DNA of 48,058 nucleotides from Planctomycetaceae bacterium (GTDB lineage: Bacteria; Planctomycetota; Planctomycetia; Pirellulales; Pirellulaceae), in NCBI GenBank assembly GCA_005798335.1, contig SYJV01000212.1:1-48058 (forward strand), read 5' to 3'. Positions within the stretch are counted from its first letter, which is position 1. Every line of letters begins with the position of its first letter. Below, one piece after another: positions 6,961 to 48,058 of the stretch. The notes beneath the pieces are model-generated. The model saw only the letters and a list, made by a program, of their open reading frames with translations. It searched no databases and was not told the origin of the DNA. The position numbers were made by a program, and so were the translations under genes.

Positions 6961-7001
6961 CGTCGCGGCGCAAAATTCCCGAAGAGACTGTGATTGTTTG
7001 T

Positions 7002-7129
7002 AACCCGAAGCGTAAGCGAGGCGCGATGATCGGCCCTGGGAAAGTGTGATTGTTTCCTGCATCACAGAATCGTAGGCCCAAGAGTAGCCGAGGGACCGAT
7101 TATCGTACCTCGCTTACGCTTCGGGTTTC
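7002..7129. repeat. Palindromic intergenic repeat of the CCCGAAGCG(C/T)AAGCGAG family
   Basis: The arm at 7002-7037 (AACCCGAAGCGTAAGCGAGG, then a diverged CGCGATGATCGGCCCT) pairs with 7090-7129 reading in reverse complement, with about five mismatches. The core CCCGAAGCG(C/T)AAGCGAG is shared with the repeats at 1-113 and 1319-1478, but the outer parts differ, so it is a related subtype. It sits between the convergent nadA and TIGR03790 genes and may serve as a bidirectional terminator, which is inference. No gene is seen between 6961 and 7201. Confidence 0.7.
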
Positions 7130-7201
7130 AAAAAATCACATCCTCTACGGGACGATAACGCAGCCCGGGACTGAATTACTAACACTGGCAGGTTTTTTTG
7201 G

Positions 7202-19799: not shown

Positions 19800-20268
19800 T
19801 TGTGAGCTTGGCGGCTATGCCGAACAGGAAGGTAGTCCCGCATTGGTCGTCGAAATTGTTAGCTCTTTCTCCGTCGCGAAGGACTCCAATTTGCCGCGAG
19901 AACAGTATGCCAAAGCCGGTGTTATGGAGTATTGGCTGATCGACGCTCGCTCCCAGTCGCATTCGATGGAGATTCAGCACTTAACGGAAGGCGCCTATCC
20001 ATCCGCGTCTCGAACGGACGCCGCATCGCCTTCGTGGGCTTTGTCGCGCTATATCGCGCTGATCCAGGCGAACAGTGGCGCACCAGAAGGCGAGCATCGA
20101 ATTCGTTTCGATCCCGGCACCACCCACATGCAAGCCAGCCCAGAGATCGCGTTGGGCAAGAAGATGCCCGTTCGTTACTTGGAGTTTCGCACTTCGAAGC
20201 TCAAGCAAGTAATCGTACGAGGTGACAATGTATTCACTGTTGAAGTCGATCCGCCAACCAGCAAGTGA
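19800..20268 (+). pseudogene. Decayed Uma2-family (DUF820) endonuclease-like gene
   Basis: The frame through 19820-19990 encodes GYAEQEGSPALVVEIVSSFS, then YAKAGVMEYWLIDARSQS and HLTEGAY, the distinctive PD-(D/E)xK-type core of Uma2 (DUF820) proteins. A possible N-terminal piece (LPEGPSEH) lies in another frame at about 19755-19785, with stops before the core. The part after residue TEGAY (to 20268) no longer looks like Uma2 and I do not recognise it. The gene thus lacks its N-terminal half and is frame-disrupted. Uma2 genes are abundant and often mobile in planctomycetes and cyanobacteria. The remaining stretches 19685-19800 and 20269-20364 show nothing coding. Confidence 0.55.
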
Positions 20269-20364: not shown

Positions 20365-23300
20365 TCAATTGCCTGGAAAGAGTTCATCAATCCAAGTGCC
20401 GACCAAATCATTATCACCGGCGGTAATCGGACCATTTGCACGCGGTTCGTTCGCGTTGAGTTCATTGATGATCCACAGGCTATCCAAGGGTGTCAATCGA
20501 CCGTCGTCGTTGACGTCCAAGTATGCGGTCCGATCGGTCGATTCGAAGACTCTTGGAAGCACACCGGTAGTGGGATGACTGACCCGCGGCGCATTCAGTT
20601 CGTTTGCGATTAGAAGGGCGTCCAGTGCTGAGATGTATCCATCGCGGTTCACGTCACTCGGTTTGGCAGCGTTATGCCATGCCAAAGAATGTTCGCCGCC
20701 AAGTCCTCCGCCCCTTACAGCTCGCGTGTTGAGATAGTTGATAACGATCAGCGCATCCAGAGGCGAGGCGAATCCATCTTCAAAGACATCATAATATGGC
20801 GGCGGACCGAGCGAACTGGTGATGGCTGGAAACCGAGGACTCGGGCCAGTCACCGCATGCGAGTTGAGTTCGTTGATTACCAGCAGTGCATCCAGGGGCG
20901 TCACGAATCCATCGTCGTTGACATCGACATCGAGGGTAGAGTTGTGCCAACTGAGCGCCTTGGCGGCAACCAGTTTGACGTTTTCGATCTTGACTCGCGA
21001 ATTGTCGGTCGTGCCAAGGCCGACCAGATCGACGTAAAGCGTATTAACGGAGCCGGCCGGCAACTGCGCCAGATCGATCGACACATTCATGGGCTGCGCC
21101 AAGTTCACCGTACTTCCGCTGGACTGAAGTCCGGTAACGGTCACACCCGGCGCGACGAAAACTCGACCGTCGGCTTGGATATTGAGCAATCCGTCGCTGC
21201 CGGTCAAACCGGTAATGGGTGCTAGCTGTGATAGTGTTTCATTGGCTCGCAGCAGCGCGACTTCGATCGCGTCGCCCGGCTGGCTAGCGCTACCGACATC
21301 CAACTGGATGCCGCTGAGCGTGAAAGTCAGTTTTTGAGTTCCCACGGGCAGAATGAATGTTTGCGAGAGGTCCGTCAACATCGAGCCGACGGTCTCAGTC
21401 AGCGTGGCTCCCGCGCCAATGCTGACGCTGCCGACGATATCCCAAGTGAATTGAGGATTGGCTGGATCATTGATCGTAAATGCACCATTCATGATACCGG
21501 TCGCGGGACCGTCGGCGATGGCTTGGCTGACATGCGATGCCAGCAGAACGAATCCGTTCTGATCACCCATCAATCGATTTCCGTCGATCATTCTTCGGCG
21601 GTCGCTGGGTTCAGCAGACGATTTCCATACTCGGTTGATGATATCGAGATCGATTTGTGTTGGAGTCTTACGCGATCCAGGCGCGAGCGAGGCAGCCATA
21701 AGCGCCTCTGGGTGGGCTATCGGATCTAGCTCGCTGTACGGCCCGAACAATTCGTATTGACCATAGTCACCTAAAATGAATTTCTTGCCGCGATAATCGG
21801 TCATTACTTGGCGATCAAATCCGTCAAAGGCAAACGAGAAACCGATCAAGTGTCCAATCTCGTGCAGCGCCGTGGAGTACAAATCATATCTGCCTCGAAC
21901 CTGTTCATTGTTCGGGTCTGCGAATTCCGAACTATCCCAAGGAGTTCGATCGATGTACCAGCCGTTTGCATCCGCATTCACATCGAACACGATCGACGCG
22001 CGCGTGACACCGCCGTTCGGGCTGAACTCGATAATGCGAGCTTCGGCCAATTGACCTTGGGGCAGGTCTTCGACGAACACGTCCACGGCAGGCACGAAGA
22101 AATTGGGTGCGTCGACCAGCGAGTTCCAACTAGCTATCGCTGCGGATACAGCATTCAATATGCGTCCGTCAAAACTACCCGTCAGTATTGTCTGGCTGAT
22201 CGATTCGTCAACCGCAGGAGAAAGTCCCGAAAGGAAAGTGGAATTGGCCAGTAGGCGAAGTAAGGTCGCCGATGGCAACTGAGGAGCCCGCACATCGTTC
22301 CAAACTCCGAAGATACTCGTATCATCCGGTATCGCGGTGACCCTTGCATAATATTGCTGAGTGGGGTCGTTACCGACTTGGTCTGGACGACGGCGTTTCG
22401 CAGCCTCATAGGTGGGACGTAGGAAACCGATTCCCGCGTCGCTGCCATGTTGTTGAATAATAGCATCGAATCCTGCCTGATCCATAATTTCGATCAGATG
22501 CATGGCCCCATGTGCTTTGGTTACAAGTTCATGCACTTCCACTCCGGAAAGGTCAAACTTCGGCAAGGTCGAATCGGGAGCATGGTGTTTTCTGGCCTGG
22601 TCCTCAAGTGCTTTGAGCACGACGTCAAGCGCACCACCTTGATCGAAATGGTCAAACTCTTTTGAGAGATTGATGCCGAAGTGCCCGGTTCCGTCACTGA
22701 TCGCTTTGAGCTCCCCATTGACGATTTGCAATTCACCGCCGCCGACAATTTTCGTATTTGGCCCTAGGAACTGTGAGTGTTTGAACTCGTCGAGCAAAAC
22801 ACCATTTGGCAGAGTCCCAGCACCGGCATGTTCGATGCGCTGTTTGCCGTAGAGATTGCCGTGTTCATCCATAACAAATATGAACGATGAATTAGTGTAT
22901 TGACCGTCAGGGTAACTTGTAAGACCATGCAGGGACGTGATTGGCTGACCATTGTGCGCCCAGTAAAGGCGGCGGTCTCTGCCTACTACAATTCTCGTCA
23001 ACTTCAGGTCGTCGGGCGCCAGTCCCTGCAGGTTATTGTGAGCGTCTTGAAACGCTTTGGCGTTAGAATGCTTATCCGAAAAATGTTTGAGCTGCGAATC
23101 CGTAAAAGCAGGGTAAAATTCGGGATGTGGCTTTGCTGGCGGTGTCGCGGCGGCCCCGGCGGGTACGGCCGCGCTTGGATTGTCGATGACTTGGCTCTGG
23201 TGCAGCGACTGAAGTTGGTTCATCTCCATTTTATAGTAGTGCGAGTTGTATCCCCCCAGGTCATCCGGACTGAGATGACTTGCGCCCTGGCTGAGCTTTT

Positions 23301-26300
23301 CCGCTTCATAATCGAGCGTACCGTAATGCCATATATCGTTCGGCTCAATCGGTGAGCCGTTGACGGAAACTGTGGCCGTTTGTTGACTTTTGCCCAGCAA
23401 CGGTGTTTGGCCGGGACGATCGACTTCGTCCGCAACGAACGCCACGATGGCCGACTTCTCCATCCGACTGGCCGGTTCATGTTGTAGTCGAGTTAGTTGT
23501 TTTCTCAGTTGCAGTGCCACCAATTGTCGTCGCGCGTAGGCCAAACTGCGTTCAATGGCACCGGCGCTGTCGCCCGCCAAATTCAGCTTCTGGACCATGT
23601 TGCGAGAAAAACTCTGCAAGTCTGCTGAGCGCACAATACTGGAACCGACGTCGATAACGCTGGTCGCCAAATTGGTACTCAACCGACCAACTTGACCGGC
23701 CATGACGATCGATTGTTCGACTAATCCGCCAAACGCTCGCGCCGCTCCTCCGCCGACATGGATCGTCGCGCCGAGTGCCGACGAGCCGACAATTGAAACG
23801 CCGCTGGCCAAGCCAGTCGCCGCACTGCGGACTCCTGTACCAACGGCCGAAGCGGTCGAGCGCCCCACGGCGAGCGCACCCGCACCGGCGGCCAGTCCTG
23901 CCTCATTGACGAATGCTCGCGAAGCGCCGAAGACCGTTTTCAGACCACCGGCGATACCCGACATTTTGCCAACTCGTCCCAACAGGCCTACGGCTGCGCC
24001 ACCAACATTGAGCAAGTTGAAATCGGCGGCTAGCTGTCCCAGATGAGCGGTTTCGCCGTTGAGTATCAAGTCGGGTATGCTGGCGACTTCGTTAACGATC
24101 GCTTCGAAAGTCGCTTTCGCAGTCATTACCGCTCCTTGCTGAGCGACTGCCTGACCCACCATTGAATAGTAGCGACGCTGTGAACGATCGCTGAGCAATC
24201 CGTTATCGCGTAACCCGAGGCTAGTAAAGTCGGCAGCCATCGCGCCCAACTCGGTGAACGCTTGCGCGGTACCGACCAAGGCTCCGCCGATAAACGCGTC
24301 GACATGCAGCAACGACGCGAACAGGAATCCACCCAGCGACGATTTCGAAATCTTGTTCGCATCGCGAGACATTCGATTCAACGAGTCCATATTTCTCGTC
24401 AAACCCGCCGTACTGTCTTTCGAGAATTGGCCGAGTTGGTTCGCGTAAGCGTTCAGTCGTTCGCGTCCTGTCTTGAGAGCTTCATCAATGTTCCCGGTGT
24501 AATACCAGGCTGCAATTCCTTCAGGTTTGGCCGCGAGCAGCGACGCCGCGAACACAGATGCTCCAGCCACAACTCGAAACGAATCGCCGATTCGCTTGTC
24601 GATTTGCTTGATATTTTCCTTGTAAGACTCGCCGAATTCCATCGCGGTCGAACCAAAGGGATTCGCAACTCTAGAGCCCCAGACATGGGCAGCGATATTC
24701 TGCCGCGAGCCGCGCGATTGTGCGCTGGCCATCCAGCTATCGCCGCCCGCGGTCGACCTGCCTGTGAAAAACTCTCTCGATAAACCAGTTGGATCGAAGT
24801 AATTGGCGGGATCGCCACCGGCGTAGCGATACAGGTTGAGATCGCCACCGCCAAATCCTGACGGGTCAACCGAAATAAATCTCCCCAGCGCTGGATCATA
24901 ATATCGCGCGCGGTAGTAATAGAACCCCGTCGCGGCGTCCAACATACGACCCGTATAAAAATAATTGCCCACGAGGGATGGGTTCTCGCGGAACGCAAAT
25001 TTCCCATAAGCGTCGTAGCGAATTCTGTCCAGCGCAACTCCTGTGGGGTCGATGATGTTGCGCACCGAACCCATTCGATCAGTCAACAGCCAGTGGTAAT
25101 TGGCTGCTCCAAGGTCTTGCGCAAATATCTGATCGGTCATGGGACCGTGCATGTAGGCAACGCTGGGGACCAAGCTGTTGTTCTGCACTGAAAACTCGAC
25201 CATTACGTCATCGCCATCGTATGCGTAGACGCGGTCGAGCACGGTACTACCACTGCGCTGGACCGTCTGTCGAATCCGCCGATTTAAGCCATCGTAAACA
25301 AACTGGACTCTTTGCACGACATTCTCTTGCGCATCGACATCCGAAACCGAGGTCATGCGATTGCGATGGTCCCATTCCATCAGTCGTTTGGCCCCGGTTT
25401 GCTGCTCGCGCACCAGCACAATATTCCCTTCGGCATCGTATTCGTAGGTGTGCCTACCATCCGATACGACTCGGTTTCGACCACCGATGACAATGGAACT
25501 ACTGGTACTCGTGGCAGTCGTATTACCAGCCGCGTCGTAACGATAGATCTCATCGGCTAGGTTACCGGAGTAGTCAATACCGGCCAGTCGATGTAACGGA
25601 TCGTAAGAGTAGATCGCTTGACCAAACTCGTCAGAGTGCGTGGCGATTTCCCCAGAAGCATTGTAGGTATAGTCGAGCTGATGCAGTTTACTTCCCGATG
25701 CCGATTGAACGATCTGCCGCACCATGCCGCGATCTTCGTAATCCATGTCGCTGGTGGAGACAACTTGCCCAGCAGCGCTTGCGCGCTCCAAGCGATCGAT
25801 GCGGTACGACAGGTCAGCAACGTACTCGAAATTGACTCGCTTGTCCGTTGCAAATGAACCTGTTTGACGAATAGTAGTTATGCGGTCCTTGGTTAAATCG
25901 CGCAAGTAGCTGTTCTGGACCAGAACTGGGCCCGCAGCCAGTCGAAGCTGAGTTACCTCGGGTCTGCCAAGTGGATCAGGCGTGTAATTCACTTGGATCG
26001 GTGACAAACCAACGAGCGTCATTGATTGATTGGCAATTCGATTGGATGCGTCCTGAGTAAACCCAATCGTGAAATTTGAAACCGAGTCACGAACCGTAGT
26101 TGCACGGCCGACGGCATCGGTATCCATGAAAATCGAGTGGATGATCGTCCCTTGACTATCGAGCCATTTTTCCGTTCGAACTCGATTTGCGAAATCGTAT
26201 TCGTATTCTTTGCGGCGCCCGTTTCGATCGACGCTGGATATCGCTTGACCAGCGGCGTTGTACGTTGTTGTGCGTGTGCCAAATGAAGTCGTTTCCGTAA

Positions 26301-41300: not shown

Positions 41301-44300
41301 GATTGGTTAGCGGCTGCAGATCCGGAGAGCTGTTGCGGTTGCTGACCACAATTTCAAACTGCCGTCTTTCGATCGCAAGTCCATCGCTGGCATACACGGT
41401 TACTTTTTCGTAGCGTCCGGCGCCACTGGCGTTTGGACGATAGCGAATGGCGTTGTTCAGTGAATCGAAAGCTGCACCCGGCGGAAGGCGATCAGCCCAA
41501 TAGAACAACCGGTCGCCATCAGCATCAAAGGCACTGACGGGAATTTCGATCAACGAACCTTCTAGAGTTGACACGTTCTCAATCGGAGCCAAAACAGGTG
41601 GCGTATTGATGCCGCTCACATCGACTGACCAAGATTGCGCGCGATAAGCGCCGCGAGAATCAAATGCCCGCATTTCGAATGGGACTGAGGTGGTAGCGCT
41701 ACGCGGTGGAGCCCAATTGACCAGGCCCGTGTTGGCATCGACCGTGGCTCCCTCTGGTCCGCGAACGAGCACATAGGCGACGCTACTGCCGTCTGGATCG
41801 TCGGCGTTTGCATCATAGGCGTAAGCGGTCCCCACGCTGGCCGCTACCGATGGTGTTGTCGTAAAAACTGGCAATTGGTTCTTGGGGAGCGACGCCAATA
41901 CCTGGGACTGAAAACCGACTTCGAGCAGATTGGGATTCTTGAGCGCGAGCGTTACTTTGCTGCTAGTCGCTCCTACCGCCAGTGTCGTCCCCGTCCGATA
42001 TATCTCGATGTAAGGCACTAGAGCGGGATTCAATCCAGTCGTCGTTGGTTCGCCTGGCCCAATCGTGGCCAACTCCATGCCACCGCTGGTCCAAGCATCA
42101 AAACTGACCCGAATAGGACCGGCGATATCCGTTACGCCGTTATTGGTAACCGTCATGTCCACCAATAGTGTACCATCGTGACGGTTGACGCGCGGCGTAC
42201 TGAAACGTACCGCGGCCGTCGCCGAAACGTTGTCCATAACATTAAATCGCGTTGTATGACCGGTGCCACCCAAGGCGAGCCCCTGATCACTCTGGATCGA
42301 AGGCTTGACGGTGAGTTCGTAGGCGGCAGGTGGCAACGCCTCAAAGAGCAAATGACTGGTGCGAGTCTGACCGTGGTGAACAATGCGCGCGATCGACATG
42401 CCTTGACCGGTGTCGGTATTGACCAACTGATAGTTGGCAGGATTCGTCGCGGACGCCAAATCTTTGGGATCGTCAAAAATCACGCCCACATCAAACGTCA
42501 CCGAAGCCGTATTGACGACCGGGACAACACCGTCGCCAGCAATCGGAGTGGTTGATATCACGCGCGGGGCCACGATAGGTTGCAGGACATCAATCTGACC
42601 TTGCTTGGTCAGCATGACTCGACCGTCACTCAAGATTTCGATCGTCTCGATTCGCTTCGCGCCACCAGAAGCCAACGTCACGTGCCGCAGAGTTCGCAGA
42701 TCGATGGCGACAAGTTTTCCAGTGCGATCGGTCCCGGCCAGCAACAGACCGTCGAATAGCGTCCCTGGTTTGCCAATGGCCAGTGATTCCGCGGGTTCAT
42801 CCAAAGTCGCGACCACCAGGGCTCGTCCTCGATGGTCGAATCGTAATATCTCGCCGCCTCGCGGCCAAGCCGTACCATAGATAGTTCCGTCCTGGGCTAC
42901 GGCAATCGCATCCACGCGTGTTTCGCTCACTGGAATAAAACGCCGCGACAACACGTCAAAACGTTGAATGCCAGTCATGGTCGAGACGATCAACTCAGCC
43001 TTCCCCGGGACCGGCGCAATACCTAACGTTACTCCAGCCCCATAAACCGAGAGTATTTGCCCGGTCGCTGGATCGAGCTGTACCAGGCCCAGTCCGCCAC
43101 TGGTTCCCCATAGTTGGCCAACCGCGTCAAAAGCCAGCTCGTAAATGGGATGTTCGAGGGTGCTCAACAAAGTTGTTTGAGTCGTTGCCCCATCGAGTGC
43201 AAACCGAAATAGTGTTCGTCGCCCATTGCCGCCCGATGCGTATAGATACTTGCCGTCGGGACTGGACGCCAAAGCTAACGAACCAATCGACGCACCGCTG
43301 TCGCCCAACCCCACGGCAAAACTCTCCGCAGATAGCGGTTCCAAGACTCGAGTGAAAGAACTCGGTCGAGTCGTACTAGCGCGCGATGTCACGCCCGCTT
43401 GTGCTTGGATGAACAACCGGTTCGCTGAATTTACTGCGACCGGTGAGATCGATGCCAAAGCGGTTTCTATTTCGACGGGTGCCGTGGGCGGCTCACCCAA
43501 ATTTACTCTTGGTACCAACCTCGGCGCTCGGATCCCGGCAGCGACCGGCTCGACATTTCCGGCCAAATCGATAGTGCGTACTAAGAATACAGGTGGACTT
43601 GCCCCAAAGCTTGCATCCGAATAGGTAAACTCGTTTTGTCCAGCGTCCAATCGCGCGATCGTGCTATAGCGCACGCCATCTCGGCTCATCAGCACAACGG
43701 ACTCTGCCACGCCTCCATTGGGCAAGCCGTACTTGTTGGAATCGTCAGTCACTGAAAATATTATCCGATAGCGGTTGCCAGACAGCTCTGTAACAGTTGA
43801 AGTCGACACCGGCGGCCGAGCGTCAAGAGTAACGATATTGGCAAGCGACTCAATTGGTTTAGCGTCATCGAATTGAATCGTCGCAACTGTGCGAGCGGTC
43901 ATTCCAGTCTCGAGCGTCGAAATTTCGTCGGCGCTGGCGTCAATCCAGTAACCGACTTGAATCTTCTGGCCTGGCGCGATCAAGCCGACCGACGGATTGG
44001 CAGGTGGCAATCCATCGATTGGATCGATGGCCGATAAATTCCAAATCGCGGTGCGGGTAAGCACGTCGACACCGGCCGTTACTTGCAACGAGAAACCTAG
44101 CGACGAAGAAAGGTCGAATTCGCCTGTGAAAGCCGGACGGCCATCTGGAATAGCGATTCGCAAGTCACCCAGTTGTAAATCCGACAATTGGAATCGCCGT
44201 ACATCCAAGTGTGAATCCATGGGGACGGTAATGCGGATCGAGCGAGCAGCGGCTGTCGCGTTCTTGGGCAACGTGGCTTCCACCGTAAATGGTAGCGGAG

Positions 44301-47300
44301 TATCGATCGGTACGATGTTCTCAATGCCAATACCGGTGGGACCAAGAATGCCAACCTGATTCGCGTCGACCTCACCGGCAAGTTGAACGTTCAGCGGCAC
44401 AGTTGCCGACGAACTTGTGGCGAGTCGTTCGCCAACAATCATGCGAAAGGCAACAAATGATGTCTCGCTACTGGTACCCAAGTCAAATTGGCTGCGATTG
44501 GGAATACCGCTTCCACCATAAACCTGCGGTGTATGTCCGAGGTAGCCGCGAAGCCGGTCGATCAGCTCAAGCCGCTTTGTCGCGGCTGTTAGCGGGCCGC
44601 GTTCGATCTCCCGCAATAGCGCTTGTCCCGCATCGTTTCCAAGCAAGCCCGACACTGCCACAAAGAAACTAGACACGGACTCGGCCCGCGCATCGGGAAT
44701 CGGCGCGCGATCTTCTGGTCGCACCAGACCTGCCGACGACAATGCGTTTAAGTAAGCATCGGTCCAGGTGGCAACGTCGCTTGCCAGCGATACCAACTGA
44801 GTAGGCGCGGACGCATCGTTCAGAATTGCATTGCGAATCTTGCTCGCCTCAGTTCGCTTGCGCGCCAGGTATTCGTCTGGAGTCAGCGGTGTGGCGGCGG
44901 CTGCGACATAAAACTCGAACGATAGCAATTCCTTTGTTTGCGGATCGAGCTTTTGCAAGAACAGCGGATCCTCTTGGAGCAGCTCGGCCAGCCCAGGATA
45001 AGTCTCTACAAAAATCGAAGTGCTCTCAACTCTGCCCGTTGGCAAATCCATGACCAACGCGCCCGCCGTATACACGCCATTCAGATTGAGGACGGGATCG
45101 TACTGGGAAAAGTCCATCGGCGGACGGGCGGGCAAGCCGTTCAATCCCGATGCCAACTTGATCGCTTCGCCCGGAATAATATCGGGAGCTGGATTGCGTA
45201 CGTTGGGAACGCTAATGTACAGTTCTGTATAGGGCGTATCGAGATTGGCCAAGTTCCGAATCGTGACACCGTAAACACCGGTTTCACCGATTTGCAACTG
45301 CGCTTTACCACCCACGCCGACGTCAACCGTGTAGTCGTCTGCCGACTCGACCTGAAATCGGTACGGTTCCACGGCGACTCGACCATCGGGATGGAGTACT
45401 TGGACGTCGTACAGACCAGCGATCGCCGTCCTTAAATCGAACACGGCAATGATTTTCGTCGCGTCGACTCGGTGTATCGAAACAGGAGCGAGTTCGGACA
45501 GCGTCGGGCGCACTAATCGCGCTGTGACATTCTGTGGAAATTCCGCGCCATGAATTTCTAACGTCACATATCGGGATTGGCCGCCGCGCTCAGGCGATAC
45601 ATTGGTTACGCCAAACGGAATTGCTTCAGCGAACAAACGAATCGGGTGCAGTGGAGGCGGCGGTAGTGGATTGCCATCTGCCCCAATTCGCTGGTCGCTG
45701 AGAATTCCTCCACGGGCTAATACGTAGTAATTACCGGCTGACGTTTCAGGAATCAGCACGCGCTGATTCGGCTTTAAGTATCCGTTAAACGCATGATCAT
45801 AGAGGATCGGAGATGGCAAACCCTCGTGGCGAACGTACAGTTCGTGAGCGCCCGCGCCGTCGAGACTGGTTAAATCGATTTGCAGCGTCTGTCCAGCAAT
45901 TGTTTCGATCCGCAGCAGTCGCCAACCGCCGACTTGGAGCGTATCATCCAGCGCGACTCCCAATCGCAATTGCTGCACGTCGATGCGCAGCTCGGTAGCC
46001 GAAAAGCCGGTGTTATTGCGATTACTTTCCCCTTCGAAAATGTCGTCGAAAATATCGGTCCTGACCAAGACGCGATAGTCGCCAGGCAGCCTGGGAGGTA
46101 GTTTGACATCCATGCTCGCAGTGTAAGTCTCACCCGGTGCGAGCGTTCGCGATTGCTTGGTTTCACTGCGGCCTAACAAGGCATCCCCTAGGTCCCATTG
46201 ACTATCACTGGATAGATAGATCGCGTCATCCCAATAACCACGCGCCGGTTCGTTGCCTCGATTCGCAATGGTCCAGGAAACAGTTACCGTTTGGCCAACC
46301 TGACCAGTTGTGGGAATTGAAATTTCGGTGACTTGCAGGTCTGTCGGGGGCGGCGCCTGGATCAATAGAGGCGTGCTGCCGGGCGCGTCGTTATCCTTTT
46401 CGTTGGACTCGCGGACGATTCCCTGGGGATACTTGATCGTTCGAGTCGAGTCGGCGCGCACAATCACGTAATACGTGCCGGTCAGTCCCCTGGGCAAACG
46501 AACGATTCGGCTAACATCGCGCGCCTGGCCGGGCAACAATGTTTGAGAATGTTCAATCGTTCCAATCAGGTGATCGCTCTGAGTATCAAGTACCGGATCG
46601 CGCGACAAGTAAATGTTATCGGTCCATGGCATCTGACGAGCTGGAATCGCGCCACCGTTGTTCCGTATCGTGTAACGCACCAAGAAATCGCCGCCAATCT
46701 CAACGCGTGCATCCGAGGTGACCGAAGTGATTTGCAGATTGGGACGCTGTACTTGCGTAACTTGAATGTCAATAGTCGACGTGTTGTTACCTTCATCGCG
46801 ATACTCGGGCACGCGCCCATCGCCGCCGCCAGAGATCCGATCCGCGTTTTCGGGATACGGAGGATTCAACCCTACGGCTTCGCCATAGCTGACCGAAAAT
46901 GGCGAATCGGTGTAAAGGATGATTCGAAAAGCACCGCCGATATTGTCGGGGAGCTGAAGTTGGACTTCGCTGGAATAGCTTTCACCCGGCGCTAATGCTC
47001 CATTTCGACCTAGGCCTCCCAAGTACAAATCGTTGGAGGCCAGGGATGCGTCTTCGGAAAGGAAGAGAGCATCTTCCCATCGCGCCACTTCGGTACTACG
47101 CGTACCCTTGTTCATAACCGTCCAACGAGCAGTGGCCAGCCCTCCCGAATCGGACGTTGGAGGCGTGATCGAAAAACTCGTAACCTGTAGGTCAGGCTCC
47201 TTGTACGTCACGTCAATAATGTTGCTCGAAGCGCGATTGTTGATAATTCTCGAATGCGTCGAGCCAACTCGACCCTCCCACTGCCGAATGCTGAAATGCT

Positions 47301-47919
47301 CGGGCCAGTTCGGAAACTCCGATGCTGACCAACCGCCGTAGAATAGGCCGTAACGCGTAAGTTGTGCGTTGGCAATCACGTGAGCATACCACTTCCCTTC
47401 GATACCTCGCGGCAAGCGAATATCGAGGCTCATTCGTCGCGCATCGCCCGGCGCTATCGACTCTCCAGAGTCGACCGTAGAGCCTACGTAACTGGCTCGC
47501 GACTCGATGAAACTCGGGTCCTTCGACACGTATACGTAGTAATTGAATTTTGCACCGGGCCAGGTCTTCTCGGGACCGAGGTTGGCGATGTCCCACGAAA
47601 CTCGGATCGACTGGCCCGAATCCGCGGTGGCGTCGGTTTGAACATTGCGAACTTGCAAATCGACATTCAAGTCGACGATATTCGAAGGCAAAGCGGCATG
47701 ATTGTTTTGTGTGAATGGCCCTTCGAAAACTGTGGCGATAACGTTGGTTGGTCCACGCAGGATTTCCAGCAATGTGCTGCGGTCAAATCGCTGGAGGTCG
47801 GTTAACTTGATTTCTCCGATCGGTTTGCCGGTAGCCTGTTCGAACCGTTCGAGGATCGCCCGCACTTGTCCCAGCAACCCCGGATCTGCGACACCCGCGG
47901 CAATCGACGGATCGACATT
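20365..47919 (-). CDS. Giant RHS/YD-repeat surface protein, probably cut at its 5' end
   Basis: One uninterrupted frame of more than 9,170 codons. Residues are counted from the TTG at 47877. Modules in order: four CARDB (about 70-640), PPC-like and TIG (640-850), propeller-like (1515-1770), nine cadherin-type Ig repeats (2000-2885), an RHS-type N-terminal segment (3070-3350), internal dockerin (3465-3525), Big_2 and ZU5-like (3620-3950), YVTN propeller (4190-4660), YD repeats (5010-7530), RHS core (7570-7700), Ala/Gly-rich helices (7700-8130), toxin-like module (8250-8405), metzincin-like module (8580-8750), four C-terminal dockerin-type repeats (8980-9145). It is probably an exported adhesin or polymorphic-toxin-like protein. 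The N-terminus lacks a signal peptide, and the frame continues coding-like from 47877 to 47919 (NVDPSIAAGVADPG), then meets an apparent insertion sequence, so the true start is likely lost. No immunity gene is seen. Confidence 0.9.
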   Translation of the reverse strand, partial: NVDPSIAAGVADPGLLGQVRAILERFEQATGKPIGEIKLTDLQRFDRSTLLEILRGPTNVIATVFEGPFTQNNHAALPSNIVDLNVDLQVRNVQTDATADSGQSIRVSWDIANLGPEKTWPGAKFNYYVYVSKDPSFIESRASYVGSTVDSGESIAPGDARRMSLDIRLPRGIEGKWYAHVIANAQLTRYGLFYGGWSASEFPNWPEHFSIRQWEGRVGSTHSRIINNRASSNIIDVTYKEPDLQVTSFSITPPTSDSGGLATARWTVMNKGTRSTEVARWEDALFLSEDASLASNDLYLGGLGRNGALAPGESYSSEVQLQLPDNIGGAFRIILYTDSPFSVSYGEAVGLNPPYPENADRISGGGDGRVPEYRDEGNNTSTIDIQVTQVQRPNLQITSVTSDARVEIGGDFLVRYTIRNNGGAIPARQMPWTDNIYLSRDPVLDTQSDHLIGTIEHSQTLLPGQARDVSRIVRLPRGLTGTYYVIVRADSTRTIKYPQGIVRESNEKDNDAPGSTPLLIQAPPPTDLQVTEISIPTTGQVGQTVTVSWTIANRGNEPARGYWDDAIYLSSDSQWDLGDALLGRSETKQSRTLAPGETYTASMDVKLPPRLPGDYRVLVRTDIFDDIFEGESNRNNTGFSATELRIDVQQLRLGVALDDTLQVGGWRLLRIETIAGQTLQIDLTSLDGAGAHELYVRHEGLPSPILYDHAFNGYLKPNQRVLIPETSAGNYYVLARGGILSDQRIGADGNPLPPPPLHPIRLFAEAIPFGVTNVSPERGGQSRYVTLEIHGAEFPQNVTARLVRPTLSELAPVSIHRVDATKIIAVFDLRTAIAGLYDVQVLHPDGRVAVEPYRFQVESADDYTVDVGVGGKAQLQIGETGVYGVTIRNLANLDTPYTELYISVPNVRNPAPDIIPGEAIKLASGLNGLPARPPMDFSQYDPVLNLNGVYTAGALVMDLPTGRVESTSIFVETYPGLAELLQEDPLFLQKLDPQTKELLSFEFYVAAAATPLTPDEYLARKRTEASKIRNAILNDASAPTQLVSLASDVATWTDAYLNALSSAGLVRPEDRAPIPDARAESVSSFFVAVSGLLGNDAGQALLREIERGPLTAATKRLELIDRLRGYLGHTPQVYGGSGIPNRSQFDLGTSSETSFVAFRMIVGERLATSSSATVPLNVQLAGEVDANQVGILGPTGIGIENIVPIDTPLPFTVEATLPKNATAAARSIRITVPMDSHLDVRRFQLSDLQLGDLRIAIPDGRPAFTGEFDLSSSLGFSLQVTAGVDVLTRTAIWNLSAIDPIDGLPPANPSVGLIAPGQKIQVGYWIDASADEISTLETGMTARTVATIQFDDAKPIESLANIVTLDARPPVSTSTVTELSGNRYRIIFSVTDDSNKYGLPNGGVAESVVLMSRDGVRYSTIARLDAGQNEFTYSDASFGASPPVFLVRTIDLAGNVEPVAAGIRAPRLVPRVNLGEPPTAPVEIETALASISPVAVNSANRLFIQAQAGVTSRASTTRPSSFTRVLEPLSAESFAVGLGDSGASIGSLALASSPDGKYLYASGGNGRRTLFRFALDGATTQTTLLSTLEHPIYELAFDAVGQLWGTSGGLGLVQLDPATGQILSVYGAGVTLGIAPVPGKAELIVSTMTGIQRFDVLSRRFIPVSETRVDAIAVAQDGTIYGTAWPRGGEILRFDHRGRALVVATLDEPAESLAIGKPGTLFDGLLLAGTDRTGKLVAIDLRTLRHVTLASGGAKRIETIEILSDGRVMLTKQGQIDVLQPIVAPRVISTTPIAGDGVVPVVNTASVTFDVGVIFDDPKDLASATNPANYQLVNTDTGQGMSIARIVHHGQTRTSHLLFEALPPAAYELTVKPSIQSDQGLALGGTGHTTRFNVMDNVSATAAVRFSTPRVNRHDGTLLVDMTVTNNGVTDIAGPIRVSFDAWTSGGMELATIGPGEPTTTGLNPALVPYIEIYRTGTTLAVGATSSKVTLALKNPNLLEVGFQSQVLASLPKNQLPVFTTTPSVAASVGTAYAYDANADDPDGSSVAYVLVRGPEGATVDANTGLVNWAPPRSATTSVPFEMRAFDSRGAYRAQSWSVDVSGINTPPVLAPIENVSTLEGSLIEIPVSAFDADGDRLFYWADRLPPGAAFDSLNNAIRYRPNASGAGRYEKVTVYASDGLAIERRQFEIVVSNRNSSPDLQPLTNRSLREGDSLSMLIRATDADGDRLTYRSPNLPPGAFLDPNSGVLQWTPAYNQHGIYPITVLVNDGLAAVETSFQIVVENVNGAVTMPQLDAFTVFEGQTIRLRIAGYDPETPTSSSNPLPTADDFQADQGSLQALLSYTHTALPSGAKYDAATQIFQWTPTFDQAGTYDVTFTARDDGDGTNLPTTDTSTLSIRVNDANGAPRWDAISDKSIAAGETLTATLRSQDPESGRLILSASLDESVVGSLNQLPGFVAFTDNGDGTATLRANPAAGDRGSYLIVLRATEATGTPALVGTSQFLINVTSLNEPPKLATLPSRVAVVGQQMVFDVRATDADQDPLQFSASTWPTGAVLEPTSIYGLSRFRWTPTQAQLGVHSFKITVADDGHAGATSPLSSTREFAIDVRTSNTRPNLVPLGTQSVREGDLLSIAPVATDPDNNSLFFTANLLSPDGTTTTSQVPLGFQFDMLSGKIEWRPTFEQAGNYSVRLTVSDGAESRGEDVSIIVLDANRLPVASQPPRLLISEGDNFSFVVPISDPDGDPVRFRLTGTNPTGVSLDENSGLLLWTPGYDSAGGYTISYEGADARGGTAQGALAIQVLNINRSPQLTVPTTRTAVVGVPLSVSINATDPDRDALAWKVEGMPPGATFDIPSQTFRWTAEAFQIGRYTIRFIAEDGEFSVARTMEIEVLAASPAPQVQLVVTPSFAVIPGSEVLVQPIVDSVNPVASIQLTIAGRAYSLDSLGRANFKPTAVGSYEAVATVRTIDNAETVVRTTIRVRNPVDLNKPILSTTLIDGQRILAGRLETAFQVLDDSLDLFTIELVPESALTGTVLATGRASGTQQVVIDSSRFENGFYTLRARAVDLGGLESTLERRLEISSTEKQASFTTQRIDASINLDGVPIEIIRRYDSLSNNRSGLLGTGWSLPMLEPRISVSQHHSSSQGTSLADSAWRIGQRVYISRPDGERVGFTFQPVSRTVGGLTIFTPAFLADRTDGWTLQVPFAELRAVAGRMYVLGNGLPYSSEVLARDDSWSFQLDSLGGLSYRYRAAELASSDYSLHSSVGASGRQVIWSDSGLIAADGARWSVINDAAGRISEAIQPGGQRQSYRYDNSGRLVLAIDLSDTTSAAKTHFGYDAAGRLITIVPLSETGQQIKYSNEGLFVGQQSIDRQFGSTRNLLFQTHSGSLASGLESRFSLVISETELAATAHGHITFAFDVVGSTGLQPDLIAADGSVARSGVTSNGRSVTLLSFDRSGVYVLRFASRDATSGPFTLTTQLVGDVDDNGSVTAADGSLLAAALGAQSGQAAFNSRADFNRDGKIDALDQSAYISALGTLLNLAPEFRASTQPLVSRGQRGTVVDLATLWADPHADELIVWSSQITGGTVRYLGDSLVLVVPDVGRTDPMQLTIKATDGLLDSASQPISIAVQSLAYVGLELDSRVVDLEVGQTQRIQVFGVLFDGALEALPASEVTFGSRANSLAQVTDRGVVIAKEVGKTLVTIAAAGLQTGALVRIATRDQHRIDVFPSSYTLPVGKTRQFVVRERDIASVSNVSSASSGAMYVVESPAIATIGTDGLLTALANGTTRVFVFQGGQSFISTITVASPLGSTATIGQGGGIVGDVAGIQVEVPSGALARNTSVSVSALQSSDLPYGLPTGFQFGSGIKISGIEEGSDYPLSVSFPAPLGIAAGQPIYLFQPVDVQLEGQPIQRTWQLVDSARVDQDGRVRTTSPPNVGVLARSPADLRGLMHPSASGILFAGVPTVLTALGAIQDLNTRNALFGDARFGSYVMRMDAFGGTADSIYYAANDIFGTVLVPAVVNIPYLVTTYRTSPQGLVEIESSQVQLAAGQVHNYVLPGIPRVDQYFTSPALVRGQIQFPTTSGGSVEIVLQVDNLLQENPYKNAPNFNSSTLGSKLADIYLTLEIGGRDTFDEQGTVKVVGSPDVRIPGSKLTLKDKILSAAVPAGAAIGAGTITVTRPMDMPLDGRFKRQEFTSNPIAVLSEGLYAAAASGGEDRVVIYNICAAELDDKVVNACKKSATATTDDPPKLEPSVAASIRLGVGLGRTLAPRKTLATPDGTRFYVTLENGGVSVIDALALHEIDLKPDAASGPTPDTQGTNHITLPPGSRPFDVTSDPLGRRLYVSDRGRASVYVIDIDPYSSKYHQLIQTINFPSVASGISAIGKIGLRGLAVTPDGNRLYVTAPARDLFGVVGGSQGVLLSVKLRDEKGLPIAIPTFDPRDLDAVTVVGVGPYEITATDDPNVMLVADRVDDKHGVTIVRRESSGGHVVDQVDLTGYGIIPRLIEGRGTQVHGVSNAQGIQYVPADKFKDKIGSHPGYAIITGFRTFAEGDPKHDPNIGPFFAYNAYFTETITLPGNVKDSDPSNDKDLRVTIPKSVAVAAGGNFALIRNPLGKFGESLTKPRVVAATMPVINGFPDDLAVASQSGLVLAGFQSRGLVLGYDLAAMIKSVESSARGPKLSSWSQFPEDPASNGPLSNLLRGPLSTVPIDWVNPLSAVAADFRFFRTTGTDGSVVLGYGVPPRGPDNNSPNSYAPLPGGRLPRGVSVQPAVDEQSILLVPTPYNQTPSMNAFPNGPFQVEAGITANVEVHTGALHEMHSLVSYRSQEQDRGLVLHYDSLRADPLQVFHFAASNLDKQTVDVAKDRFVARLTAQLGDTRIAGLGLEEADARKLGLVGSENLFKIPKFENKTPSNLVSVAEHSFGAGLQIDLGKGETGLYTFLLDYGILRNVDGKYQGDLLRQTFPVAVVNSTDGPIGAGWGIAGYLRLYPGDAGALLVDGNGQEQIFLAPQQADQPYTSLANDHSVLRIVNKLFERRLRDGTIERFDSQGRLNTVTDRNGNVTRFEHVDKNLTKIIDPVGLATEFIYLGNRVESMKDPDGRITRFSYKDGHLESITDPDGSKRTFAYGASVGLTQPEKGTIREGTKHLLTSQILKRGHAPNEPLDDPFQETYKYDEVGRIASGRRVDGETFSLKAAQVKFTYSVSKSTDAENAPELFELSSPETIDQSSLLAIRCGATPEQTASEKTKYLAQADYKDFRGTATTFGMTSYGQYHDSRQDERRTSVQGRNSSSGRITAEEDAVGNLMCYTYDAFDNVKSIKDCPNKSTTSETIYQYDYEFPSLYSQSFNQVVITVDGVGRRTENKLDGKGNILSATVTDPHAPTGSPSAVTTHYVYNSQGLRRQVKDGRGNDINYTYDIYGRLDRAIYVDGFEKFVYADLTGKPTETFDANNNRTIYKRDKMNRVLETNHVANPVTPQFGSKMDYDAQGNLIRRVDLDGNVTTFTYDVLDRNVTTVVEPGGLSLTTKNAYKLVNLKPTYDVLEEPGGATQVTQRPDGTFNVEVHDKHGDLIRTYDGLGRLTKTLRDKAGRKIGEIPPHGKAVTLDLDARGRIELQTGPLPDQKVKFAYDNADRLVTQTVYNGKQEQVTKQTYNLFDQVVELTNAENHKTRREYDLAGNRTAETIGFGTAIAFRTEWVFDKRNRVESEKRGTAAPKTFVYYASGHLRVATDERDYKTEYRLDGMNRVYETIDAEKNTIRTQFSGEGDLLSTTDGRGAEYKTTFQYDHARRLVTTVDPLNNTTVYAYDKMGRKIAMADARAKGNIDSKLYVERLAYDAIGRLKEHADALGHTTKYEYDVWDTIIDIDAPQPGSDRDARIITHNEWSANRRQLTTTVGQKTNNTIVSRQSFDALGNLILKEASVDRPEAVGVATRLEYDKLNRVRKRIEAPGTTVAATYQIVFDARGLQSRTIDPRGMITDFKYDSRMRLSETRQGVGTIDEIVIKTEFDDTGNLISQSDPRGDQIKTQFTYDGLGRKIKETRPIGSAIGPAVAEIVLDYDKAGNLISETDPRNRQWITQYAYDKSNRLIKKTDALSKDWLYDYDAVGNRIKSTNPHGISLTYEYDALNRLYGTVNAFGYVTATQFDPYGNVLATVSPNAGLQNSASSILVGGIGGLTHTERFSYDKFGRRIESTDAEGHKTRYVYDTLGRVVAFSDARSVESGAQFVTSYTYDQRSRPIKVERASGLNGNDEKLVTLTGYDAAGNVDSRTDPRGVKTSLEYDILGRLKKSTVNTSVPNEGYHGGELYVTTFKYDQAGNLKELTDPRGAFYTMFHNYDAQGNRVETSFRTGTPEDPGEIATTIKTFDPSNNLKSTQDPRGAYYTSFNDYDALGRLERTSQPRGTPAAPLPPRVESFVFDSAGYLDAHILARKNSTGSEQLSIVYDQDLLGRQVKITDSGGFVKEHTHDRNGNVIVEKQIGKGASAGQDSPDRVIRYTYDRKNQLIRTTDPTARISEIFYDPVGNIIKTIQPELNSLDTRSTTTFVYDAANRKRSFTDAEGGVQRLQYNSAGHVIVDQDARGAFYAKRMQYDALGRIIRMEQPTGTPEVPGTPSVYTTTYQVGGAKTTHVDPRGPTFATVATYTASGSQASLARAAGRDGDGHRDVQKWRYDLAGNLATYVDPRGAAFATTYEYDAASLLRSVTYAAGTVDVPAQLTERYEYDEDGRQIKHIGIGGPVYVSLRQYDNLGRPVLAINPVGESVRVVLDRWGNPVSTTDKFGTTHQEFDSLNRMTYKKDPLGHETLIAYARSGSTQITTDARKNDWKKDNDGLGRTIRETDPLGSVTLNQFDAIGNMTQVTNSIGLVHTTTFDARSLPVEQVMAKGRPEQEKTRTEYDALGRPILSTDPRDLTGEFYATRTEYDDLGRVIRTLHSAATPVQASTLVTPGFSKGLVTQTFYDAVGNVTKQVPIGGEEFAITQAYDRMNRRIETQAPTGTRQAPRTSVSRFEYNHAGDVAAMVDALGQRTEWQYDQIGRVTKRSIMVPGASPLVTTNRYITDASGFRVEQIDALGTSSSSIHYDGLGRVSRESIRGEPDRVTTYDAVGNVAKVQQGRWFVTRKYDKRNHLESESDAATNEQRFVVDSIGNLRFHFDAVGNPPTEFQYDGLNRRVLTIDSLRGRSLVSYDLGGNVESVSDPSQNVTTIKFDGLDRPITETTSFGTRTTTYNAAGQAISSVDRNGRRKEYEYDFANRVRTEKWLDSQGTIIHSIFMDTDAVGRATTVRDSVSNFTIGFTQDASNRIANQSMTLVGLSPIQVNYTPDPLGRPEVTQLRLAAGPVLVQNSYLRDLTKDRITTIRQTGSFATDKRVNFEYVADLSYRIDRLERASAAGQVVSTSDMDYEDRGMVRQIVQSASGSKLHQLDYTYNASGEIATHSDEFGQAIYSYDPLHRLAGIDYSGNLADEIYRYDAAGNTTATSTSSSIVIGGRNRVVSDGRHTYEYDAEGNIVLVREQQTGAKRLMEWDHRNRMTSVSDVDAQENVVQRVQFVYDGLNRRIRQTVQRSGSTVLDRVYAYDGDDVMVEFSVQNNSLVPSVAYMHGPMTDQIFAQDLGAANYHWLLTDRMGSVRNIIDPTGVALDRIRYDAYGKFAFRENPSLVGNYFYTGRMLDAATGFYYYRARYYDPALGRFISVDPSGFGGGDLNLYRYAGGDPANYFDPTGLSREFFTGRSTAGGDSWMASAQSRGSRQNIAAHVWGSRVANPFGSTAMEFGESYKENIKQIDKRIGDSFRVVAGASVFAASLLAAKPEGIAAWYYTGNIDEALKTGRERLNAYANQLGQFSKDSTAGLTRNMDSLNRMSRDANKISKSSLGGFLFASLLHVDAFIGGALVGTAQAFTELGAMAADFTSLGLRDNGLLSDRSQRRYYSMVGQAVAQQGAVMTAKATFEAIVNEVASIPDLILNGETAHLGQLAADFNLLNVGGAAVGLLGRVGKMSGIAGGLKTVFGASRAFVNEAGLAAGAGALAVGRSTASAVGTGVRSAATGLASGVSIVGSSALGATIHVGGGAARAFGGLVEQSIVMAGQVGRLSTNLATSVIDVGSSIVRSADLQSFSRNMVQKLNLAGDSAGAIERSLAYARRQLVALQLRKQLTRLQHEPASRMEKSAIVAFVADEVDRPGQTPLLGKSQQTATVSVNGSPIEPNDIWHYGTLDYEAEKLSQGASHLSPDDLGGYNSHYYKMEMNQLQSLHQSQVIDNPSAAVPAGAAATPPAKPHPEFYPAFTDSQLKHFSDKHSNAKAFQDAHNNLQGLAPDDLKLTRIVVGRDRRLYWAHNGQPITSLHGLTSYPDGQYTNSSFIFVMDEHGNLYGKQRIEHAGAGTLPNGVLLDEFKHSQFLGPNTKIVGGGELQIVNGELKAISDGTGHFGINLSKEFDHFDQGGALDVVLKALEDQARKHHAPDSTLPKFDLSGVEVHELVTKAHGAMHLIEIMDQAGFDAIIQQHGSDAGIGFLRPTYEAAKRRRPDQVGNDPTQQYYARVTAIPDDTSIFGVWNDVRAPQLPSATLLRLLANSTFLSGLSPAVDESISQTILTGSFDGRILNAVSAAIASWNSLVDAPNFFVPAVDVFVEDLPQGQLAEARIIEFSPNGGVTRASIVFDVNADANGWYIDRTPWDSSEFADPNNEQVRGRYDLYSTALHEIGHLIGFSFAFDGFDRQVMTDYRGKKFILGDYGQYELFGPYSELDPIAHPEALMAASLAPGSRKTPTQIDLDIINRVWKSSAEPSDRRRMIDGNRLMGDQNGFVLLASHVSQAIADGPATGIMNGAFTINDPANPQFTWDIVGSVSIGAGATLTETVGSMLTDLSQTFILPVGTQKLTFTLSGIQLDVGSASQPGDAIEVALLRANETLSQLAPITGLTGSDGLLNIQADGRVFVAPGVTVTGLQSSGSTVNLAQPMNVSIDLAQLPAGSVNTLYVDLVGLGTTDNSRVKIENVKLVAAKALSWHNSTLDVDVNDDGFVTPLDALLVINELNSHAVTGPSPRFPAITSSLGPPPYYDVFEDGFASPLDALIVINYLNTRAVRGGGLGGEHSLAWHNAAKPSDVNRDGYISALDALLIANELNAPRVSHPTTGVLPRVFESTDRTAYLDVNDDGRLTPLDSLWIINELNANEPRANGPITAGDNDLVGTWIDELFPGN
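20450..20940 (-). repeat. Four C-terminal dockerin-like EF-hand repeats
   Basis: Four copies of D-x-N-x-D-G-x-x-x-x-x-D-A/S-L-x-x-I/A-N-x-L-N: DVNDDGFVTPLDALLVINEL, DVFEDGFASPLDALIVINYL, DVNRDGYISALDALLIANEL and DVNDDGRLTPLDSLWIINEL, spaced 40-45 residues apart near the C-terminus. Such modules end many planctomycete extracellular proteins. The second has lost the Asn of the calcium loop. They probably anchor or stabilise the protein with calcium. Confidence 0.88.
21625..22150 (-). other. Metzincin-like metallopeptidase module with incomplete zinc site
   Basis: The motif HEIGHLIGFSF has zinc ligands H8672 and H8676 and the catalytic Glu E8673 (DNA 21850-21864). A later ALMAASLAPG stretch followed by QIDLDIINRVW matches the Met-turn and last helix of matrixin-like peptidases. 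The third histidine, expected at the eleventh position of the motif, is Phe, so the site is incomplete or uses another ligand. It may be inactive or autoproteolytic; neither is shown. Confidence 0.65.
22660..23126 (-). other. Post-core toxin-like module of the giant protein
   Basis: Residues about 8251-8405. The pattern FVMDEHGNLY ... FKHSQFLGPNTKIVGGGELQ ... GELKAISDGTGHF resembles an H-S-S-F-L-x-G-x-P-V-x-x-A-G-E and S-G-H-Y motif that I recall from C-terminal regions of bacterial effector and polymorphic-toxin proteins. The enzymatic role of that motif is not known to me. An Ala/Gly-rich helical region (23500-24780) lies between it and the RHS core, as is common before toxin domains. Confidence 0.5.
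24783..25165 (-). other. RHS-associated core domain
   Basis: The segment carries WLLTDRMGSVRNIIDPTG (residues about 7595-7612), GRMLDAATGFYYYRARYYDP and LGRFISVDPSGF, and ends with LYRYAGGDPANYFDPTG. This is the canonical RHS repeat-associated core (TIGR03696 type), which caps the cocoon and ends in DPxG, where the variable C-terminal region begins. Confidence 0.92.
25300..32840 (-). repeat. YD (RHS) repeat array
   Basis: About 2,500 residues of tandem YD repeats of the form YDxxGRLxxxxDPxGxxxxxxYD. Dozens of copies can be read by eye, for example YDALGRLERTSQPRGT and YDAAGNVDSRTDPRGVKTS. In known RHS/teneurin/Tc-toxin proteins these build a hollow beta-barrel cocoon that encloses the C-terminal cargo. 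This array is long for the family. An early short piece of the same kind sits at about 37830-38010, about 1,700 residues upstream. Confidence 0.92.
33900..35310 (-). other. YVTN-type beta-propeller in the giant protein
   Basis: Repeated segments such as TLATPDGTRFYVTLENGGVS, DVTSDPLGRRLYVSDRG and LAVTPDGNRLYVTAPARD (residues about 4190-4660) are typical of YVTN/YncE-like propeller blades. A related propeller-like region with SPDGKYLYASGGNG lies at about 42560-43330. The blades usually mediate binding or adhesion; no catalytic residues are recognisable. Confidence 0.75.
37310..37475 (-). other. Internal dockerin-like EF-hand pair in the giant protein
   Basis: Two calcium-loop motifs, DVDDNGSVTAAD and DFNRDGKIDALD, separated by about 30 residues, form a dockerin-type I module in the middle of the protein (residues about 3465-3525). 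It lies just after the first RHS-type segment, far from the C-terminal dockerin-like repeats. Confidence 0.75.
39230..41870 (-). repeat. Nine cadherin/He_PIG-type Ig repeats in the giant protein
   Basis: Nine modules of about 85-120 residues in a row, each with E-G-x-x-hydrophobic, A-x-D-x-D-x-D, L-P-x-G-A and F/L-x-W-x-P signatures (for example PPGAFLDPNSGVLQWTP). They match the putative Ig/cadherin-like repeat type known from large bacterial surface proteins. The A-x-D-x-D-x-D segments probably bind calcium. The copies have diverged, so the expansion is not recent. Confidence 0.8.
45965..47680 (-). other. CARDB block in the giant protein (four modules)
   Basis: Four successive modules of about 130-150 residues, each beginning with a hydrophobic strand such as VDLQVRNV, PDLQVTSF, PNLQITSV or TDLQVTEI and containing a V-x-W-T-I/V-x-N-x-G strand, a pattern typical of the CARDB (bacterial adhesion-related Ig-like) domain. 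They form the exposed N-terminal end seen here. A PPC-like and a TIG module follow downstream to about 45330. Confidence 0.8.
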
Positions 47920-47920: not shown

Positions 47921-48058
47921 GGGCCTGTGTAAAAATAACTTTTACAAGTTGCTATTGGTCGAATTCAGTCGGATATGTGATAACGAAAGCATCATGGATG
48001 CAAAAGTTATCGCAGGAATTCGTCGCAAGTATAAGTTGTTGGCTCCAGAACTGCATGA
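47921..48058 (+). mobile_element. Left end of an insertion sequence (ISAzo13-like), runs out of window
   Basis: At 47921 the sequence changes from coding-like on the minus strand to GGGCCTGTGTAAAAATAACT, which looks like an insertion-sequence terminal repeat, followed by about 50 AT-rich bases and the start of a plus-strand gene at 47994. The junction lies exactly where the giant gene's coding character stops. The right end and target duplication are outside the window, so the boundary is approximate. Confidence 0.6.
47994..48058 (+). CDS. Transposase N-terminus, ISAzo13-like (partial)
   Basis: The frame from the ATG at 47994 reads MDAKVIAGIRRKYKLLAPEL and then H before the window ends. This agrees with the N-terminal pattern of ISAzo13-family transposases (Rhodopirellula transposase DDE domain), which typically start with M-D-x-x-x-I-x-x-I-R-x-K-Y-x-x-L-x-P-x-L-D/H-E-R. 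Only 21 residues are visible, so the family call is tentative. It is too short to appear as a long open frame. Confidence 0.55.
   Translation, partial: MDAKVIAGIRRKYKLLAPELH

Follow-up and report, generated by a model that had tools for sequence, protein, structure and literature searches.

We found that a long minus-strand frame in a window of 48,058 nucleotides (contig SYJV01000212.1 of a Planctomycetaceae bacterium, family Pirellulaceae) is only the 3' part of a gene that an insertion sequence has severed. Judged by comparison with its relatives, the frame makes up three quarters of that gene, whose product would be a surface RHS protein of ~12,200 residues. Across the relatives, a middle unit, mostly of ~5,300 codons and made up of the YD cocoon, the RHS core, the cargo and an HExxH module, appears to have a history that differs from that of its flanks, and block exchange by recombination inside one gene is the best explanation. 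The planctomycete giant gene looks like an RHS system with a swappable middle. It is found in cultured Stieleria strains, so comparisons between strains with different units should make its function testable. A different route to RHS diversity is suggested, in which the shell changes along with the cargo; if true, it is the entire RHS capsule, and not the toxin tip, that would be polymorphic.

A giant gene cut by an insertion sequence

The frame runs from 47919 to a stop at 20365-20367, giving 9,184 codons plus the stop. An earlier note on this DNA had described a single intact frame of 27.5 kb; the frame is real, but an insertion sequence cuts the gene. A 30-base terminal repeat of the element lies at 47921-47950, and the last 138 bases of the window have eight matches in the genome (136-138 bases, 100% identity), each at a contig edge, the window's included. 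The opposite end of the element is carried by six further contig ends of the same genome. At all 14 ends seen, the flank was TAA or TTA, which fits a 3-base target duplication. The first TTG of the window frame, at 47877, is not a natural start.

Among the six contigs with the other end of the element, only contig C198 combines the right phase with CARDB-like sequence. Its ATG frame of 3,012 codons reaches the element in the phase needed by the window, contains beta-helix, Ig and CARDB repeats, and has an LExRR-type start, as in relatives, which we take to be a planctomycete leader. Contig C91 is also open into the element and was rejected as the 5' piece, since it carries the other flank and its sequence is unrelated. 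In all 12 relatives tested, the alignment of the C198 piece stops at one residue and that of the window frame starts at the next, indicating that the gene had about 12,200 codons. The two pieces were treated separately, not joined. With the leader separated from the remainder, the giant gene is probably off in this genome.

A search with 1,077 post-core residues gave matches in 74 of 199 family genomes, own included, and in 14 of these the match lies within a single frame of 12,015-12,513 codons. The size, which had been held to be unusual, is therefore not unique. The source assembly is a draft of 558 contigs (97.5% complete) and the window is one of them, so an assembly artefact or chance could be suspected; homologous frames of 12,019-12,513 codons in four single-contig genomes (G179, G148, G011 and G055) reject this reading, to which we give next to no credence.

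Several relatives are named below by genome code. We took G191 as Stieleria sedimenti, G172 as Rhodopirellula sp. JC639 (S. mannarensis), G179 as S. neptunia Enr13, G148 as S. maiorica Mal15, G055 as K23_9, G087 as CA13, G021 as KatS3mg110 and G171 as HKST-UBA45; Stieleria belongs to the Pirellulaceae according to NCBI. The giant frames of G048 and G198 lie outside the stretches examined, and the stretches of G111 and G086 begin after the first ~190 and ~140 codons. In G164 (L125/L126), three frames that overlap (4,410, 4,419 and 3,642 codons) together hold the giant, a result of frameshifts or draft errors.

Domain layout

From the N-terminus, the layout is an adhesin stalk, a YD cocoon, the RHS core, a variable cargo, an HExxH module, a sandwich-like module and dockerins, and it is common to the relatives (Table 1). 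Pfam and NCBIfam matches cover the CARDB repeats, the He_PIG/Big_9/cadherin-like repeats, Big_2, the RHS repeats (also matched by TIGR01643 of NCBIfam), the RHS core and the dockerins. The modules named in the earlier note (CARDB, cadherin-type Ig repeats, YD cocoon, RHS core and dockerins) are confirmed by these matches, as is its layout of a cocoon with several post-core modules and dockerins last, shared by the relatives. Of the two propeller-like regions it proposed, the second is matched by a beta-propeller model and the first is covered by no Pfam match.

Table 1. Features of the giant gene in the window (positions on the 48,058-nucleotide stretch; residues of the window frame).
Feature	Position	Strand	Basis and remarks
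Truncated giant-gene frame	20365..47919	-	3' three quarters of ~12,200-codon gene
Terminal dockerin type I domains	20449..20943	-	Pfam PF00404, over cut-off
Conserved sandwich-like module (DLSQTF)	20956..21552	-	Begins at exchange unit 3' border
Exchange unit, about 5,360 codons (residues 3482-8842)	21394..37476	-	Position transferred from relatives
Metallopeptidase-like module	21610..22152	-	Invariant HExxH motif; weak models
Cargo region (residues 7714-8589)	22153..24780	-	Varies between relatives
RHS core (residues 7635-7713)	24781..25017	-	TIGR03696, E 1.3e-21
YD-repeat cocoon (residues ~4807-7634)	25018..33501	-	PF05593, best segment E 1.6e-92
Second propeller-like region	33760..35232	-	TIGR02276 beta-propeller repeat, E 6.1e-7; borders approximate
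Internal dockerin (residues 3482-3535), close to exchange unit 5' border	37315..37476	-	Pfam dockerin match
First short RHS-like stretch, N part	37885..38655	-	DUF6531 below cut-off, RHS_repeat above
He_PIG/Big_9/cadherin-like Ig repeats (residues ~1900-3080)	38680..42222	-	Pfam; borders approximate
CARDB repeats, adhesin stalk (residues ~80-640)	46000..47682	-	Pfam PF07705, E 1e-21; borders approximate
Insertion sequence end, contig stops inside element	47921..48058		8 copies at contig edges, TAA flank

The core carries the motifs DPSGF (24853-24867) and DPTGL (24781-24795), a pair of the autocleavage type. The pattern DPxG...DPxGL was seen in the window and in 15 of 20 relatives examined. 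G151, G156 and G009 have no core motif and 3-6 YD motifs, compared with 31-55 in the 15 with the motif. A propeller-like region ahead of a YD shell is a likeness to teneurins, with which the protein had been compared; the comparison is weak, as the shell model PF25023 reaches only 25.5 bits where its cut-off is 50, and a search at E <= 0.01 turned up no EGF domain.

Within the ~1,470 residues that follow the core, the HExxH module contains HEIGHLIGF at 21838-21864 and HPEALM at 21697-21714. Residues H, E, G, H, G and F of HExxHxxGF are invariant in 14 of 14 aligned members, and in all 14 the module adjoins the tail. Its model matches are below curated cut-offs (Pfam Matrixin, E 0.0084; NCBIfam metallo_LGF, 27 bits against 80). 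The metzincin motif is HExxHxxGxxH/D, and the place of the third ligand is taken by F in the window, so the metzincin-like label fits only in a loose sense. Further on, the H of HPxxLM is retained by 12 of the 14 close members; in a wider set of 22, with proteobacteria among them, just 9 retain it. The M of the same motif is retained by 13 of 14 and 21 of 22, respectively.

Between this module and the dockerins lies a sandwich-like module (residues ~8790-8988; mean column identity 62%) that was missing from the earlier list of modules; "sandwich" is our guess at the fold. In a search with a model of it, 47 of the family's 199 genomes had matches, as did 8 from a phylum-wide sample of 392, own included in both counts. 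A genome has up to nine such matches, and the frames that hold them reach 13,995 codons. Three loci, G138:C1:1785670, G185:C52:26988 and G191:C66:24723, each carry this module in a single frame of 13,983-13,995 codons.

The frame had been said to end in four dockerin-like EF hands; dockerin matches over the cut-off are present, and the count of four is our own reading of the sequence. Its own genome has 34 dockerin matches (Pfam), and no cohesin (PF00963) was matched in this draft, so a cellulosome was rejected in spite of the dockerin domain (PF00404). The dockerins are perhaps a general C-terminal tag in this genome.

Probable exchange of the middle unit

We compared seven same-genus pairs, with a change-point test that left out the first 2,000 residues, which are more variable. 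In five of the pairs, identity is 86-94% from residue 2,000 to ~6,170-6,900, 24-39% over the middle ~5,230-5,510 residues, and 87-93% over the last 245-355 residues. The sixth pair, G179/G172, shows the reverse, with unit DNA 96-98% identical between flanks of 70-92% and borders at residues ~6,660 and ~12,140. In the seventh, G111/G086, there was no drop in the unit. Variation is not restricted to the unit, as the first ~1,500-2,000 residues are also variable in some pairs (53-74% over the first 1,500 in G159/G187; 0-74% over the first 1,000 in G148/G172).

The unit holds the propeller, cocoon, core, cargo and HExxH module. Its left border lies at most about 70 residues from the internal dockerin in four of the five pairs, and about 220 residues ahead of it in G159/G187. 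The right border is 9-27 residues ahead of SQTF or, for G179/G172, within the sandwich-like module. Downstream DNA is continuous in three of the five pairs, with an extra stretch in two; this shared downstream DNA indicates exchange at one locus.

Identities and trees were computed for 12 sequences, the window and 11 relatives. The trees used only the 1,500 residues preceding the internal dockerin and the 1,500 preceding the core. G171, G021, G111 and G086 were excluded from both; they have the core, but our search pattern did not locate the internal dockerin where expected. Across the 12 sequences, the N part and the tail group alike, at 84-93% and 85-93% in close groups. The unit groups differently: class I comprises G087, G112 and G159 (51%), another class G179, G172 and G011 (53-98%), and class III G148, G187, G055 and the window (37-65%), with G191 and G075 standing apart; background identity is 32-39%. 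Against the unit data, three N-part groups are rejected: {G191, G179, G148, G172} (p 9e-65), {G159, G187} (3e-60) and {G011, G075} (4e-5). The converse also holds, with three unit groups rejected by the N-part data (p at most 6.2e-5); these groups were chosen after viewing the matrix, so the p values are descriptive. In each of the 11 relatives, the unit has a lower GC content than the N part, the difference ranging from 0.2 to 4.7 points.

Unit classes cross genus codes, with 44-65% identity in classes I to III when the window is left out, so between-genus exchange would be old or indirect. Only the G179/G172 exchange appears recent. The window's unit is 37-41% like its class III relatives, and its borders are taken from relatives, since none is close enough to the window to reveal them directly; exchange is not demonstrated for the window's own copy. 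In G171, of the window's genus, the unit resembles that of G075, mostly at 38-54%.

A detached copy of the G087 type of unit was seen in G112. The frame L124:6775-17982 (3,736 codons) lies away from contig ends and has neither leader nor stalk. From its residue 74 it is 80% identical to residues 8850-12501 of G087 (76.6% over 10.9 kb of DNA), compared with 46% to G112's own full gene. Two other candidates for leaderless copies were rejected: L128 of G185 carries a separate small gene, and L129 of G148 is another giant broken into several frames. The latter (L129:1-12332) has an intervening 521-codon frame that we guess to be a mobile element. No second copy with this tail was seen in G011, G055, G075, G159 or G187, each with one sandwich match; a donor that lacks the sandwich-like module may exist inside these five genomes.

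A competing account is that there is no exchange and that the middle merely evolves faster than the surrounding parts. The even divergence of G111/G086 along the gene agrees with it. It is contradicted by the rejected clades and by the G179/G172 unit, which is more alike than its flanks, and sharp borders and the leaderless alternative copy also stand against it. We consider it highly improbable.

The cargo region

The first ~250 residues of the window cargo are like those of G111, G086, G055, G187 and G148. The window cargo also has a module (22285-23127) with similarity to parts of G075 and G279; among 392 genomes taken phylum-wide, G279 is the one other genome in which part of it recurs. 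Cargo is shared almost entirely by the classmates G179/G011, G148/G187 and G087/G159. In G055 it departs from class III after ~315 residues, and in G112 from class I after ~570, with the front shared in both. One module is common to G087, G159, G021, L093, G148, G187, G111 and G086; in our view, it recalls a small domain of other secreted effectors and of plant IQM proteins.

The toxin-like module claimed for the window was not borne out by Pfam, NCBIfam or PADLOC, which found no known toxin in the window cargo; the best Pfam match, NEL (E 0.015), was below cut-off. No toxin family exceeded its curated cut-off in the planctomycete cargos scanned (overlapping sets of 10 cargos, 10 loci and 10 by NCBIfam), and the G191 cargo has a DUF6861 match below cut-off. 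A PDB sequence search gave no match for the window cargo module and two for the part after it (E 0.27 and 0.76). There was no support for a membrane-crossing region, as predicted helices were not clearly above shuffles.

The best hint of effectors in the cargo slot comes by analogy from L113 of Plasticicumulans lactativorans, where RHS repeats are followed by a pretoxin HINT domain (E 4.3e-14), a DNA/RNA endonuclease (E 2.8e-9), and then an HExxH and a sandwich module. L113 does not have the core motif pattern and is a proteobacterial cousin, not a family member.

No immunity gene was recognised by Pfam beside the window gene. The next Pfam-matched gene past the stop, apart from a Uma2-like frame, is a convergent ammonium transporter, and the gap before it has two same-strand ORFs (100 and 112 codons) with no Pfam match. 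In relatives, too, small ORFs lie downstream. The Uma2-like frame, of 141 codons on the plus strand at 19843-20268, has a partial Uma2 nuclease match just above the Pfam cut-off and is possibly a remnant.

Comparison with known systems

In Enterobacteriaceae rhs loci, as described in the available portion of PMC2935791, the core and the variable C-terminal tip are decoupled, tips are displaced, and dissociated tips occur. In Photorhabdus Rhs1, the available portion of PMC8636562 reports that self-cleavage after DPxGL was shown by experiment. As far as these portions go, the giant gene resembles Rhs polymorphic toxins in its YD shell, two DPxG core motifs, variable region past the core, recombination and detached copies (PMC2935791, PMC8636562), and the G112 leaderless frame is reminiscent of the dissociated tips known from classical rhs loci (PMC2935791). 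Unlike in those toxins, shell, core, cargo and HExxH module vary jointly, mid-gene and before a conserved tail. In five of the seven pairs, the variable region neither starts at the core nor is C-terminal; it begins ~4,000 or more residues ahead of the core (~3,000 in the shorter G075). The giant is also roughly 4 to 9 times the 1,400-3,000 residues that the earlier note cites as usual for RHS proteins, and no adjacent immunity gene was recognised by Pfam.

Metallopeptidase domains behind RHS repeats (PVC-metallopeptidase, Tox-MPTase1-5) are described in the sections seen of PMC3482391, as is a notable share of PVC-type systems without adjacent immunity genes. Compared by these descriptions, the HExxH domain likewise follows RHS repeats here; those domains are described as releasing peptidases or terminal toxins, whereas here the module sits between the cargo and the sandwich-dockerin tail. 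Post-core modules of the kind found are thus partly familiar, as regards metallopeptidases, but such a tail is not mentioned in those sections (PMC3482391).

Planctomycete surface proteins encoded by over 15-20 kb with cadherin-like and Ig repeats appear in the parts consulted of PMC5177795 and PMC7717043, and dockerin is among the leading domains of huge planctomycete proteins in that of PMC11573180. Table 2 of PMC7717043, part of the same excerpt, lists a 6,872-residue protein of S. varia with "toxin system" among its putative functions, and another named Matrixin. These excerpts mostly portray such giant genes as adhesins or as enzymes acting outside the cell, going by domain content alone, and mention no RHS cocoon, cargo slot or unit exchange (PMC5177795, PMC7717043, PMC11573180). 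Among the literature matches listed, with few subscription papers, none was on planctomycete RHS giants or whole-unit RHS exchange; this silence is weak evidence of novelty.

Proposed function and alternatives

Cargo delivery is the likeliest function, even though none of the planctomycete cargos scanned matched a known toxin. That the protein is a giant surface RHS protein with an exchanged shell-cargo unit, its cargo delivered on contact, seems to us an even call. The N part, with its leader-like start, beta-helix, Ig, CARDB and cadherin-like stalk, would hold the cocoon away from the cell, and the cocoon would shield the variable cargo. The core would putatively self-cleave after DPxGL, by its motif pair and the analogy with Photorhabdus Rhs1. 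The HExxH module, travelling with its cargo, could perform a second cut or serve as an effector, while the C tail of sandwich-like module and dockerins may tether the far end. Cargo would be passed on contact to a rival or prey, and a unit swap would alter weapon and shell together. Should an immunity gene be truly absent, it would become more probable that the targets differ from the producer or that there is no toxin.

A more specific version holds somewhat less firmly, at a little short of even. Here the protein would be a surface-tethered RHS weapon whose shell, cargo and processing peptidase make up one ~16-kb unit. Homologous recombination would place this unit between a stalk and a tail that stay fixed; it would act within genera and, further back in time, across them, and leaderless copies would serve as a reserve.

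The protein might instead be a diversifying surface adhesin or recognition protein, its unit swapped against phages or grazers or as a kin mark, and its cocoon a rigid display head. The stalk is built of adhesin repeats, the planctomycete cargos scanned have no known toxin, and the immunity gene was not recognised. G151 (L073/L074) and G156 (L077/L078) keep the HExxH module, sandwich-like module and dockerin tail with no core motif and 5-6 YD motifs. We find this reading doubtful, if by no means negligible, because 15 of 20 relatives retain the autocleavage-type motif pair and the cousin L113 has a HINT-nuclease between its RHS repeats and HExxH.

Improbable in our estimation is a digestive or predatory surface machine, with external polymers or prey as the targets of its HExxH module and cargo, and with partner proteins bound by the dockerins. 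The dockerins and the constant place of the HExxH module beside the tail speak for it, and the part seen of PMC6461901 proposes a peptidase complex of the cohesin-dockerin type in other planctomycetes. However, no cohesin accompanies the 34 dockerin matches in its own draft genome, and the HExxH module sits within the exchanged unit.

We also noted another RHS gene in the window's own genome (L025, G000:C372; 1,791 codons). By eye, it ends in EF-hand-like repeats that are absent from the Pfam dockerin matches, and its contig ends in the same insertion sequence.
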